A stretch of 41,772 bases of DNA from Deltaproteobacteria bacterium (GTDB lineage Bacteria > Desulfobacterota > Binatia > DP-6): positions 1 through 41,772 of the forward strand of contig VBKG01000304.1 of the NCBI GenBank assembly GCA_005879585.1, in the 5' to 3' direction. Under the pieces are notes generated by a model. The model did no database searches. It was not told the DNA's origin and saw only the letters and a list, made by a program, of their open reading frames with translations. Position numbers and translations under genes: made by a program. Position 1 is the first letter of the stretch. Every line of letters starts with the position of its first letter. Below are positions 1,115-5,966 of the stretch, piece after piece.

Positions 1115-1350
1115 CGTCAGCTGTGAGCCCATGGATGACGAGCTCGATCGCCTTGCTGCCGCGCACCCGGAACACGTCGACGGCGCGGATCTCGAACCCG
1201 GTGCCGCCGAGCGTCCCGTGAAGCTGGTCGTGCGATGCCGGGAGCCGTCAAGCGGATCTCCGGGCGGACGAGCTCGGGGAGCCGCTCCGGCGGCTTCCAG
1301 AAGTCGAGGAAGCGCCCGACGAACCGCCCGCGTCGGTCGCCGGCGCGGAA
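1115..1350 (-). pseudogene. Remnant of a second SnoaL-like (NTF2 fold) gene
   Basis: Two fragments of one SnoaL-like domain lie in different frames. The first (about 1350-1235) reads FVGRFLDFWKPPERLPELVR and then EIRLT, typical of the domain start. The second (about 1232-1115) reads HGTLGGTGFEIRAVDVFRV and then KAIELVIHG, typical of the domain end. The middle of the domain, roughly 35 residues in relatives, is absent between them. This fits an internal deletion that also shifted the frame, rather than a single sequencing error. The first fragment's frame ends at TGA 1119-1117. It sits between the intact SnoaL-like gene and the crotonase. Confidence 0.55.
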
Positions 1351-1865
1351 GACTCCGCGCCCTCGCCCGCCGCGCCGAAGGCGCGAAGCTCCGCGGCGAC
1401 CTTCTCGACCGGGAGACCGATTTCGTCGCACATCGACGCGAGGTCGAAGAAGAAGCGCTCCGAGGCGAGTCGGCCATCGCGGTGGACGAACACGCAGCTG
1501 AACGGGAGCGCGAAGGTCCGGCCGGTCGGCGCGAAGCTGCCGAAGGCGCCCCGCATCGTCGCACGGACCGTTCCCCAGCTGGCGACGACTCCGTCACCTT
1601 CGGCGACGCCGTCGGTGGTGACGCCGTAGTCGGGGAACGTCGCGAAGAACATGTGGAGCTGCGCGGAGACGACTTCCTTGCCGGCGCCCCGGATGCCGAA
1701 GGGCACGGCATCGAGCACGAAGTCCTCGTGACAGAGCGCGAGAGCCCCCTCGACGTCCTGTCGGCTCTTCGCCGCGGAATAGCGGGCCACCAGCTCTGGT
1801 CCCCTCGACGGAACTCGCGTATCCTCCATCACAGTGGCGTCGGGAGCGGTGCTTTCCAATCGCAT
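1248..1865 (-). CDS. SnoaL-like / NTF2-fold protein
   Basis: A 205-residue frame whose first ~145 residues form a complete SnoaL/ester-cyclase-like alpha+beta domain (GPELVARYSAAKSRQDVEGA, FFATFPDYGVT, FALPFSCVFVHRDGRL). Members bind small polyketide-, steroid- or terpenoid-like ligands and act as cyclases, isomerases or hydrolases; the substrate cannot be told here. The last ~45 residues are Ser/Gly/Ala-rich and come from reading through the decayed second SnoaL copy, so the native C-terminus may differ. ATG 1865 was chosen because GGAGAT sits 6-7 bases upstream; the upstream ATG at 1901 lies inside an operator. It is first in the leftward operon and divergent from the TetR gene. Confidence 0.7.
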   Translation of the reverse strand: MRLESTAPDATVMEDTRVPSRGPELVARYSAAKSRQDVEGALALCHEDFVLDAVPFGIRGAGKEVVSAQLHMFFATFPDYGVTTDGVAEGDGVVASWGTVRATMRGAFGSFAPTGRTFALPFSCVFVHRDGRLASERFFFDLASMCDEIGLPVEKVAAELRAFGAAGEGAESSAPATDAGGSSGASSTSGSRRSGSPSSSARRSA

Positions 1866-1895: not shown

Positions 1896-1924
1896 TTGCA
1901 TACCGTCGGTATGTCGCTTTACAT
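1896..1924 (+). promoter_or_regulatory. Candidate promoter of the TetR gene
   Basis: TTGCAT (1896-1901), a 17-bp spacer and TTACAT (1919-1924) face the TetR gene. The expected transcript start, about base 1931, falls at the TetR start codon, so the mRNA would be leaderless. Operator 1 lies in its spacer and operator 2 covers the start, which fits autoregulation. The -10 match is modest. Confidence 0.4.
1899..1913. promoter_or_regulatory. TetR operator 1
   Basis: A perfect palindrome, CATACC-GTC-GGTATG. Its centre lies 23 bp from operator 2. It covers the predicted transcript start region of the leftward promoter and lies in the spacer of the TetR promoter. Confidence 0.7.
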
Positions 1925-1944
1925 ACCATGGGTATGCCAGTCAA
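1916..1944 (-). promoter_or_regulatory. Promoter of the leftward SnoaL-crotonase arm
   Basis: Reading leftward: -35 TTGACT (1944-1939), a 17-bp spacer that contains operator 2, and -10 TAAAGC (1921-1916). The same layout and largely the same bases recur at 2679-2707 in front of the rightward arm. Confidence 0.6.
1922..1936. promoter_or_regulatory. TetR operator 2
   Basis: A perfect palindrome, CATACC-ATG-GGTATG. The central ATG (1928) is a possible start codon of the regulator gene, and a second in-frame ATG (1934) overlaps the right arm. It fills the spacer of the leftward promoter. Confidence 0.7.
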
Positions 1945-2560
1945 TAACCCGAGCGCGAAATCGACGGCGACGAACGAGGAGCGATCCGAAGCGACGCGAG
2001 CGCGGCTCTTGGCGGCGGCGCGTAGGCTCTTCGGCCGGAGCGGCTACGCGAAAACCTCAGTCGAGGAGCTGGTGGGCCGGGGCGGCGTCACCAAGGGCGC
2101 CTTCTACCACCACTTCGAGGACAAGAAGGCGATCTTCCTCGCCGTCCTCGAGGAGGCGCAGATGCGGCTCGCCGAGCGGTGCGCCGCCGCGGCGCAGGGC
2201 GACGACGCCTGGCAGCGCGCGGTCGCAGGCTGCCACGGGTTCCTTGAGGCCTGCACCGACCGCGAGATCCAGCAGATCATCCTGCGCGACGGCCCCGTCG
2301 TGCTCGGCTGGGAGACCTGGAGGGAGATCGACACCCGCTATGCGCTCGGCTTGCTGGAGGTGGGCCTGCGCGACGCGATGGCCGGAGGATTCATCCGCTC
2401 GCGGCCGACGAAGCCGCTCGTGCACCTCCTCTTCGGCGCGCTCTGCGAAGGGGCGATGGTGATCGCGCGCGCCAAGAAGCCGCGCGAGGCGCTCGCGACG
2501 GTCACCCGCGAAGTCGACGAGCTGCTGGAGGGGATGCGGGGGCAGAACCCGCCCCGCTAA
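1928..2560 (+). CDS. TetR/AcrR-family transcriptional regulator
   Basis: A 210-residue repressor. Residues ~20-66 form the TetR helix-turn-helix (RARLLAAARRLFGRSGYAKT through VTKGAFYHHFEDKKAIFLAV), followed by an all-helical ligand-binding region ending in LLFGALCEGAMVIARAKKPR. It probably binds the four CATACC-N3-GGTATG palindromes at 1899-1936 and 2687-2724, and so controls itself, the SnoaL-crotonase arm and the GFA-hydrolase-lactonase arm. The start may be ATG 1928 or ATG 1934. Neither has a ribosome binding site, and the predicted promoter would give a leaderless mRNA, which favours 1934. The inducer is unknown, probably a substrate of the flanking enzymes. Confidence 0.9.
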   Translation: MGMPVNNPSAKSTATNEERSEATRARLLAAARRLFGRSGYAKTSVEELVGRGGVTKGAFYHHFEDKKAIFLAVLEEAQMRLAERCAAAAQGDDAWQRAVAGCHGFLEACTDREIQQIILRDGPVVLGWETWREIDTRYALGLLEVGLRDAMAGGFIRSRPTKPLVHLLFGALCEGAMVIARAKKPREALATVTREVDELLEGMRGQNPPR

Positions 2561-2678
2561 CCGCTCCGGGGCTCCGCTCACCCTTCGTTCAGCCGCACGT
2601 TCTGAAGGCGACGGGGCGAACCGATGCGGCCTGGCGGACCGCTCCTCGTTCGTGGGCATGCCGTCTGGGGAAGGTGGG

Positions 2679-2707
2679 TTGACTCACATACCCGGGGTAT
2701 GTAGAGC
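2679..2707 (+). promoter_or_regulatory. Promoter of the rightward GFA-hydrolase-lactonase arm
   Basis: TTGACT (2679-2684), a 17-bp spacer containing operator 3, and TAGAGC (2702-2707) lie in the 212-bp gap after the TetR gene. The order, spacing and most bases match the leftward promoter at 1944-1916. The leader to the GFA start would be about 60 bases. Confidence 0.6.
2687..2701. promoter_or_regulatory. TetR operator 3
   Basis: A perfect palindrome, CATACC-CGG-GGTATG, placed between the -35 and -10 boxes. Confidence 0.7.
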
Positions 2708-2709
2708 TA

Positions 2710-2724
2710 CATACCGACGGTACG
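2710..2724. promoter_or_regulatory. TetR operator 4
   Basis: CATACC-GAC-GGTACG has one base off a perfect palindrome. Its centre is 23 bp from operator 3, the same spacing as operators 1 and 2. Confidence 0.65.
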
Positions 2725-3213: not shown

Positions 3214-4122
3214 ATGAGCCAGCCTGCCGCATCGCTCGCAACGGATACCGCTCAGGCGTGGAGGTCGCCGCTCCTGGGCGAGCGGAGGGCGATCGACCTC
3301 CCCCAGGGGACGATCGAGTACTTCGAACGCGGTCGGGGACCGACGCTGGTGCTGGTTCACGGCTGGCTGGTCAACGCCAACCTCTGGCGGAAGGTGGTCG
3401 ACGCGCTCCACGAGGATTTTCGGTGCCTGACGCTCGATCTTCCCCTGGGCTCCCATCGGCTCGCGATGTCTGCGGCCGCCGACCTCGGCCCCGACGGGAT
3501 CGCCGCCCTCATCGCCTCCGTCCTGGAGCGGCTCGGACTCACGGGCGTGACGCTGGTCGGCAACGACTCCGGCGGTGCGTACTCGCAGATCGCCGTGGCG
3601 CGGCACACCGACCGCGTCGCGCGCCTCGTTCTCACCTCCTGCGAGACACCGTACGACGAGTGGCCACCCGCACAGTTCGCGTATCTCCGGACCGTCGCCC
3701 GCGACCCGCAGTCGCTGCGCCAGGCGGCCGAGGCGTTGCGCGCCCCCGAGTTCCGGCGGTCGTCGTATGGAGCTGGCGCCGGCATCGCGAAGCATCCCGT
3801 CGCCGACGAGGTGATCGACTCATACGCGCTACCCGGCGCGTGCGATCCGGAGGTCCTGCGGGACGTCGCCGGGGTGATGTCGAGCGCGTCGACGGCCGCC
3901 GTCCGGTCGGCGGCCCGACGTCTCATGGAGCGGCCGTCGGTTCCCGTCCTGCTGGTGTGGTCCCGCGAGGACTCGCTCTTCCCGCTCGCGCACGCGGAGC
4001 GCTATGCTCAGGCGCTCCCCGGGGGCGAGCTGACCATCATCGAGGACGCCTACACCTTCACGCCGGAGGACCAGCCGACGCGCGTCGCCGACGCGATCCG
4101 ATCTTTCGTGAAGTGCGGATGA
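3214..4122 (+). CDS. Alpha/beta hydrolase with Asp nucleophile and no usual catalytic His
   Basis: A 302-residue alpha/beta-hydrolase. It has an oxyanion-side HGW motif at 49-51 and a nucleophile elbow G116-N-D118-S-G-G. Asp, not Ser, is at the nucleophile position, as in haloalkane dehalogenases and epoxide hydrolases. A likely acid follows at WSREDSLFP (250-257). The expected His loop (normally A-G-H-F) reads A279-Y-T281-F, so the catalytic His seems replaced by Thr. Water activation must come from elsewhere, or the enzyme does non-hydrolytic chemistry. The start is firm: AAAGGAGG lies 5 bases before ATG 3214. It overlaps the next gene by ATGA. Confidence 0.85.
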   Translation: MSQPAASLATDTAQAWRSPLLGERRAIDLPQGTIEYFERGRGPTLVLVHGWLVNANLWRKVVDALHEDFRCLTLDLPLGSHRLAMSAAADLGPDGIAALIASVLERLGLTGVTLVGNDSGGAYSQIAVARHTDRVARLVLTSCETPYDEWPPAQFAYLRTVARDPQSLRQAAEALRAPEFRRSSYGAGAGIAKHPVADEVIDSYALPGACDPEVLRDVAGVMSSASTAAVRSAARRLMERPSVPVLLVWSREDSLFPLAHAERYAQALPGGELTIIEDAYTFTPEDQPTRVADAIRSFVKCG

Positions 4123-5034: not shown

Positions 5035-5043
5035 TCCGCGACT

Positions 5044-5955
5044 TTAGGCACGTGGATGGTGGCGGCGGTGCACCTCGCGCAGCCGGACCGGCGTCACATG
5101 CGTGTAGATCTGGGTCGTCGCGACCTCGGCGTGGCCGAGGAGCGCCTGGACGACGCGCAGGTCGGCGCCGCCGGTCAGCAGATGGGTCGCGAACGTATGG
5201 CGGAGCATGTGCGGGAAGACGCGCGCGCCGAGACCCGCGGCGAGCGCACGCCGCCGGACGATCTTCCAGATCGCCTGGCGCGTCAGGGCGCGGCCGCCGC
5301 GGCCGACGAAGACGAAGGGGCTCACCCGGCCGCGAAGCTGCCGGCCGCGCGCCGTGCCGAGGTACGCCTCGAGCGCTTTCCTCGCCGCCCCGCCGACGGG
5401 GACGACGCGCTCCTTCCCGCCCTTCCCTGCCACGGTGACGAACCCCGCCTGCAGGTTCAGCTGCTCGCCGCGCAGCGCGGCGAGCTCCGACACGCGGAGG
5501 CCGCACGCATAGAGCAGCTCGAGCAGCGCGCGGTCGCGGAGCCCGGTCCGCTCCTCCTCGCCCGGTGACATGACGAGCGTCGCCGCTTCGCCCTTCCCGA
5601 GCGCGCGCGGCAGCCGCGGCGGGGGCCGCCGGAGGCGCAGCTTCGCCGCCGGGTCGTCCGCCAGCCGCCGCTCGCGGACGAGAAAGCGGACGAAGCCGCG
5701 CGTCGCGGCGAGCGCCCGTGCCTGGCTCCGCGCCGACAGGCCGCGCTCGGCGAGACGGGCGACGTGGCCGCGGACGTCCGCCGGCCCGATGCCGGCGACG
5801 GTCCGCACGCGGCGCGCCGCGAGGAAGGCGGCAAACCCGCCGAGGTCCCGCGCGTACGACTCCATCGTGTTGCGCGCGACGCCGCGCTCGCTCGTCAGGT
5901 GGTCGAGATAGCCGTCGATCGCCCGGTCGATGTCCCCCGCCCCGCCCCGCCGCAT
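5044..5955 (-). CDS. xerD: Tyrosine recombinase XerD
   Basis: A 303-residue site-specific tyrosine recombinase of Xer type, expected to resolve chromosome dimers at dif with a XerC partner. The N-terminal SAM-like core-binding domain covers ~8-95 and the catalytic domain ~115-300. The full active-site set is visible: R154 (GLRVSEL), K178 (AGKGGKERVVP), H249-x-x-R252 (HMLRHTFATHLL), H275 (LLGHAEV) and Y284 (TTQIYTHV). Wording such as LTRQAIWKI favours XerD over XerC. ATG 5955 lies 11 bases after the glnD stop, so the two are co-transcribed. No phage or integron genes flank it, which argues for a housekeeping role. Confidence 0.92.
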   Translation of the reverse strand: MRRGGAGDIDRAIDGYLDHLTSERGVARNTMESYARDLGGFAAFLAARRVRTVAGIGPADVRGHVARLAERGLSARSQARALAATRGFVRFLVRERRLADDPAAKLRLRRPPPRLPRALGKGEAATLVMSPGEEERTGLRDRALLELLYACGLRVSELAALRGEQLNLQAGFVTVAGKGGKERVVPVGGAARKALEAYLGTARGRQLRGRVSPFVFVGRGGRALTRQAIWKIVRRRALAAGLGARVFPHMLRHTFATHLLTGGADLRVVQALLGHAEVATTQIYTHVTPVRLREVHRRHHPRA

Positions 5956-5966
5956 CGGCCGTCCGC

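Follow-up and report, generated by a model that had tools for sequence, protein, structure and literature searches.

Gene organization of the locus

We analyzed a contig of a Deltaproteobacteria bacterium (VBKG01000304.1) in which a TetR-family regulator lies between two groups of enzyme genes, a leftward arm and a rightward arm. The whole stretch of 41,772 nucleotides is called the window here. Its relevant features are listed below; G002 is a sister species, in which relatives of the right arm lie on contig C127.

116..1105, minus strand: crotonase-family gene (PF00378, 2.7e-36), a possible left-arm member judging by gene order
1248..1865, minus strand: SnoaL-like gene of the left arm (PF07366, 1.2e-16)
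1896..1901, plus strand: possible -35 element of the TetR promoter, TTGCAT, proposed from the sequence
1899-1913, no strand: operator with CATACCGTCGGTATG, at the predicted leftward start site and within the spacer of the likely TetR promoter
1919..1924, plus strand: possible -10 element of the TetR promoter, TTACAT, proposed likewise
1921-1916, minus strand: -10 element of the leftward promoter, TAAAGC, weak, assigned from the sequence and the aligned -10 elements
1922-1936, no strand: operator with CATACCATGGGTATG, filling the 17-bp spacer of the leftward promoter and overlapping the TetR start codon
1928..2560, plus strand: TetR_C_41 family regulator, ATG at 1928 or 1934 (Pfam PF21351, 8.7e-33; TetR_N, 1.5e-15)
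1944-1939, minus strand: -35 element of the leftward (SnoaL) promoter, TTGACT, with an exact 2-bp gap to the operator that recurs in relatives
2679-2684, plus strand: -35 element of the rightward promoter, TTGACT, also present at G002 contig C127 and included in the promoter alignment
2687-2701, no strand: operator with CATACCCGGGGTATG, filling the 17-bp spacer of the rightward promoter, 15/15 bases the same at G002 contig C127
2702-2707, plus strand: -10 element of the rightward promoter, TAGAGC, weak, assigned from the promoter alignment
2710-2724, no strand: operator with CATACCGACGGTACG, one mismatch, at the predicted rightward start site, absent at G002 contig C127
2773..3189, plus strand: GFA-family gene, first of the right arm (PF04828, 2.2e-15)
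3214..4122, plus strand: alpha/beta hydrolase with a GNDSGG elbow and a presumed Asp nucleophile (PF00561, 9.6e-22), with a 79% identical relative at G002 contig C127
4119..5000, plus strand: SMP-30/gluconolactonase-like gene overlapping the hydrolase stop (PF08450, 4.2e-48), with a 79% identical relative at G002 contig C127

The right arm is packed like an operon: 24 bp separate the GFA-family and hydrolase genes, and the hydrolase stop overlaps the lactonase start. Downstream of the lactonase gene, an open frame resembling a XerC-type tyrosine recombinase was noted by eye (about 5040-5960, minus strand). Sister species G001 (locus L104) has an intact second NTF2-like domain in its SnoaL gene, whereas the one in the window (1248-1340, minus strand) lies out of frame or is in part absent; the damage may reflect decay or an assembly error.

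The regulator scored 57.2 bits against TetR_N (curated cut-off 24) and 113.3 bits against PF21351 (curated cut-off 27), which places it in the TetR_C_41 branch of the TetR family. Its best solved relatives were the EthR2/Rv0078 entries (phmmer E 7e-38, residues 12-201).

Twin promoter-operator modules and a probable promoter of the regulator

A preliminary description of this DNA had proposed that four CATACC-N3-GGTATG palindromes form two near-identical modules facing left and right. This held: the palindromes lie in two pairs, each 23 bp apart, one of them with a mismatch, and both modules have the proposed order of TTGACT, a 17-bp spacer filled by a palindrome, a -10 element and, after 2 bp, the second palindrome. 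In a gap-free alignment the two modules share 43 of 51 bases. Their length, given earlier as 38 bp, is 46 bp from TTGACT through the second palindrome; 38 bp is the palindrome pair alone. Agreement at 11 of 18 positions that we ourselves chose as unneeded for the -35 element, the operators or the TA of the -10 element (p ~0.003 vs 28%) lends modest support to a shared origin of the two modules. A strict sigma-70 scan of positions 1800-2800 returned no promoter, a consequence of the weak -10 hexamers.

The preliminary description had overlooked the kinship with EthR2 and two features at the start of the regulator gene. TTGCAT and TTACAT, separated by 17 bp (1896-1924), are likely to form a TetR promoter that overlaps the left module and points the other way, and the candidate TetR start codons sit inside or at the end of the palindrome at 1922-1936. 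Operators are found at the regulator's own start, the palindromes beginning at -35 and -12 from the ATG at 1934.

At two or fewer mismatches the window contained four palindromes, against a mean of 0.15 and a maximum of 1 in 100 shuffles. A genome-wide search for the palindrome returned these four alone in the whole genome (5.28 Mb, 625 contigs) at one or fewer mismatches, with 0 for a reversed control pattern, so that none is scattered elsewhere at that threshold. The looser pattern CATACN5GTATG with one mismatch occurred at 5 further places; the reversed control occurred at 7, and we therefore claim no additional genomic targets.

The operator accompanies TetR homologues

Homologues of the regulator were collected with tblastn from one genome-collection scan and from searches at genus, family, class and phylum level. 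Matches under about 120 query residues, the copies L001-L004, identical upstream regions and one split match (L037) were left out. The resulting set comprised 77 upstream regions without the window and 78 with it, and one locus could give several matches. Exact CATAC-N5-GTATG was present in 35 of the 77 upstream regions (shuffle mean 0.04), and a site matching CATACN5GTATG at 9 or more of 10 bases in 45 (shuffle mean 0.37), while the other 32 had no site at that level; these counts include related genomes, many of them Bradyrhizobium, and are not independent events. By comparison, 17 loci around other TetR genes of the genus yielded no exact site and a single 9/10 site.

Homologues on plasmids of named organisms gave a similar picture. 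We picked 12 loci for taxonomic spread (218 plasmid records matched, of which 40 were listed), and 9 of the 12 had a site of at least 9/10 at the TetR start. Of the misses, Tsukamurella has two 8/10 sites in the same TTGACT layout, the Mycolicibacterium regulator carries a YYHF helix, and TetR and its neighbor are not divergently arranged in Streptomyces anthocyanicus.

Sister species G001 and G002 encode TetR proteins 60% identical to that of the window. Upstream of both, TTGACT is followed after 2 bp by an operator-like palindrome; a -10 element beginning TAG comes next, and another palindrome lies 21 bp further along. These operators match 9/10 bases rather than all. In G003, TTGACA directly abuts CATACCGACCGACGGTACG; this site departs from the N5 motif and was scored as a miss. 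Spacing between neighboring sites ranged from 18 to about 30 bp among the homologues, which argues against a fixed contact between adjacent dimers. The accompaniment of TetR_C_41-like homologues across phyla by the operator supports the earlier prediction of the binding site of the local TetR.

The promoter layout also recurred. TTGACW stood exactly 2 bp ahead of an operator filling a 17-bp spacer in 12 of the 78 upstream regions; of the alternative gaps between 0 and 11, gap 5 occurred once and the rest never, and 200 rounds of shuffling never placed TTGACW at gap 2. We aligned 15 promoters (these 12, Tsukamurella, the right module of the window and G002 contig C127). All had a 17-bp spacer, and the -10 element began with T in 15/15 and with TA in 12/15. 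At the Chloroflexi locus L006, a TTGACA-17-TATAAT promoter holds an operator-like palindrome in its spacer. Since the layout recurs with exact spacing in relatives, the earlier promoter reading is sound despite the weak -10 hexamers of the window.

The exact pattern TTGACWNNCATACN5GTATG was found at 6 sites in 5 of the 143 genomes in the class (reversed control 0), and each of these 5 contains a match to the window TetR with an E value of 1e-25 or better. In G011 and G013 the sites (L140 at about 6220 and L141 at about 6596) have the form TTGACA-N2-CATACN5GTATG and precede a TPR-like gene; the TetR homologue is 2.6 and 3.2 kb off, and the neighbors include a MauG-like peroxidase and a histidine kinase, all these genes being named by eye. 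These two of the six sites stand before other kinds of gene; we kept them as pattern matches and rejected them as members of the same regulon.

Operator base 6 tracks the recognition helix

Sites were distributed unevenly among helix types: 44 of 54 regulators with YH[HQ] had a site of at least 9/10, compared with 1 of 20 with YY[QH] and 0 of 3 others. Base 6 of the operator also tracks the recognition helix. In half-site counts that tally overlapping registers of one site separately and are uncorrected for kinship, TKGA helices went with C 10, T 7, G 1 and A 0 times (18 half-sites), LTRGAL helices with G in 20/22, and V/I/G-TRGA helices with A in 78/124. In the members from Rhizobium, Vibrio, Pantoea and Phyllobacterium (L147-L150), an LTRGAL helix goes with two or three CATAC-type palindromes, most of them CATACGC.

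Some relatives in a different family of the class have tandem same-strand arrays of TetR homologues: six in G007 (C46, 85067-88756), four in G009 (C20, 98228-100651) and three in G008 (C221, 4485-6303). These have YYQF recognition helices and are without the CATAC operator.

The right arm is unlinked from TetR in G002

On contig C127 of G002, the hydrolase and lactonase relatives follow TTGACT-CG-CATACCCGGGGTATG-TAG, with the whole palindrome as in the right module of the window. The module lies at 25 kb of this 54.6-kb contig; the TetR gene of G002 is on contig C214, and no TetR homologue was found within the 15 kb fetched around the module. The spacer operator and TTGACT are kept while the surroundings have diverged, and the second, downstream operator is absent. 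Between the conserved promoter and the hydrolase, the GFA gene of this locus (L130) is a remnant of about 23 codons that retains the CHCGRVRF motif. Hydrolase loci L134 and L135 (G004 and G005) had no site of at least 8/10, and neither genome had a TetR match at E 1e-20.

These comparisons bear on what had been proposed for the two arms. They support the view that the leftward and rightward modules drive the SnoaL arm and the GFA-hydrolase-lactonase arm; as to the crotonase, which had been placed in the left arm, no such gene adjoins the regulator in the sister-species loci, and gene order makes it a possible member. The unlinked right arm keeps its promoter-operator, which speaks for shared control of the two arms; of the earlier proposal that they form one pathway, shared control is the part indicated. 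Elsewhere, 20 of 22 Bradyrhizobium loci have a SnoaL-like gene divergent from the TetR homologue, and in G001, G002, G003 and others an alpha/beta hydrolase is divergent from the regulator.

Comparison with known TetR systems

The classical tetR/tetA system combines autoregulation, divergent overlapping promoters and an efflux-pump target. The window resembles it in its 15-bp palindrome, its divergent overlapping promoters and its proposed autoregulation. It differs from tetR/tetA and from QacR in sequence, ligand-domain family, enzyme targets and the module at a second promoter. The tetO operator is 15 bp long and the QacR site 28 bp (PMC4482099).

The nearest characterized system is EthR2/EthA2, with a repressor beside an alpha/beta-hydrolase gene; the window TetR is a close relative of Rv0078. 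Rv0078 is reported to repress the divergent alpha/beta-hydrolase gene Rv0077c in Mycobacterium tuberculosis, and two dimers staggered by 7 bp occupy a 21-bp operator, Arg48 contacting guanine (PMC6016246). The names EthR2 (Rv0078) and EthA2 (Rv0077c) are used in PMC8634040. Of the contact residues named in PMC6016246, Thr47 and Tyr52 are kept in the window TetR and Arg48 is replaced by Lys; EthR2 Trp100 and Glu70 align with Phe and Gln. A 5' RACE primer given in that paper translates to LVGNDTG, and the window hydrolase has LVGNDSG. The operators differ: in place of the 21-bp site with staggered dimers described there, the window has a different sequence in two separate 15-bp palindromes 23 bp apart. 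When the EthR2 probe was compared with five operators of the family, the best 15-bp match was 10/15, for CATACAGACTGTATG and CATACCGACGGTATG, and the probe shares a CAGACTG core with CATACAGACTGTATG. Gene order differs as well, since the window hydrolase is downstream of TetR rather than divergent from it, SnoaL takes the divergent position, and a second arm is present.

Among the plasmid homologues, the TetRs of Streptomyces sp. NBC_01727 and Rhodococcus sp. BH4 have a divergent gene of the NTF2 or limonene-1,2-epoxide-hydrolase family and CATAC-type operator pairs, and differ from the window in pair spacing and gene content. In Rhizobium, Phyllobacterium and Vibrio members, TetR faces an MFS transporter.

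Searches of the open-licence literature returned no match to the exact operator strings, no paper on a TetR-SnoaL divergent operator or palindrome, nothing on PF21351 or TetR_C_41, no divergent TetR with a CATAC/GTATG inverted repeat, and no TetR/EmrR Sinorhizobium palindrome.

Discussion

We conclude that an EthR2-like repressor of the TetR_C_41 branch very probably controls itself and two operons through the twin modules and would be released by a ligand. One TetR dimer would bind each 15-bp CATACC-N3-GGTATG operator, and occupancy of the spacer and start-site operators would exclude RNA polymerase at both modules. The left operator pair covers the likely TetR promoter, which would provide negative feedback on tetR. 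Release of the repressor would come from a small ligand that perhaps resembles an ester, epoxide, lactone or fatty acid, and both the SnoaL-like arm and the GFA-hydrolase-lactonase arm would then be induced. Comparison among relatives shows the site and its layout, that both go with the regulator, and that they are conserved at the unlinked arm; repression rather than activation we infer from the layout and from Rv0078. The folds of the hydrolase, the lactonase and SnoaL suggest that the substrate may be an ester-, epoxide- or lactone-bearing compound that is degraded. The circuit is of an ordinary type, an autoregulated TetR system related to EthR2 with a different operator.

Control confined to the left divergent module, that is, to TetR itself and SnoaL, with the right module a roleless copy or relic, appears very unlikely. 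The sites in the examined homologue upstream regions do lie beside TetR, the identity between the two modules is consistent with copying, and one base of the last operator has changed; against this, G002 keeps TTGACT and all 15 bases of the spacer operator at a right-arm promoter whose TetR is on another contig. We regard it as highly improbable that TetR is an activator, or a regulator with both roles, that bends the promoter while bound inside the spacer. The operator position and the weak -10 hexamers of the window would suit such a mode. A consensus promoter lies beneath the operator at the Chloroflexi locus, however, the 17-bp spacer of all 15 listed promoters needs no MerR-like correction, and the relative Rv0078 is described as a repressor (PMC6016246).

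That the palindromes instead serve some other DNA-binding protein, or are a mobile repeat, is scarcely probable. Binding by TetR is deduced from sequence comparison, which leaves room for another protein; yet the genome holds just four copies, the 17 other TetR loci of the genus have no exact site and one 9/10 site, and the operator covaries with the TetR recognition helix. Repression by the EthR2-like regulator at both modules remains our preferred reading.

A broader reading is more tentative. It is possible, if somewhat doubtful, that TetR_C_41-type regulators share a CATAC-x-N3-x'-GTATG code in which the helix sets x, and that the TTGACW-operator cassette can be copied to unlinked operons, which would be the source of the second arm. 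Such a code might extend over Chloroflexi, Actinobacteria, Deinococcus, Proteobacteria, cyanobacteria and the lineage of the window. Its rule, offered provisionally, would assign C or T to TK, mostly A to V/I-TR and G to LTR. If true, it would allow targets of this TetR branch to be assigned from sequence alone.

The circuit is a textbook one, so what is gained is generality and testability, not a new mechanism. The results provide a precise candidate binding site and a target list for the branch that contains the tuberculosis drug-booster target EthR2. The relation of helix residues to operator base 6 is a simple rule that could predict the targets of many uncharacterized relatives. For the host organism, two enzyme operons would be tied to one signal.
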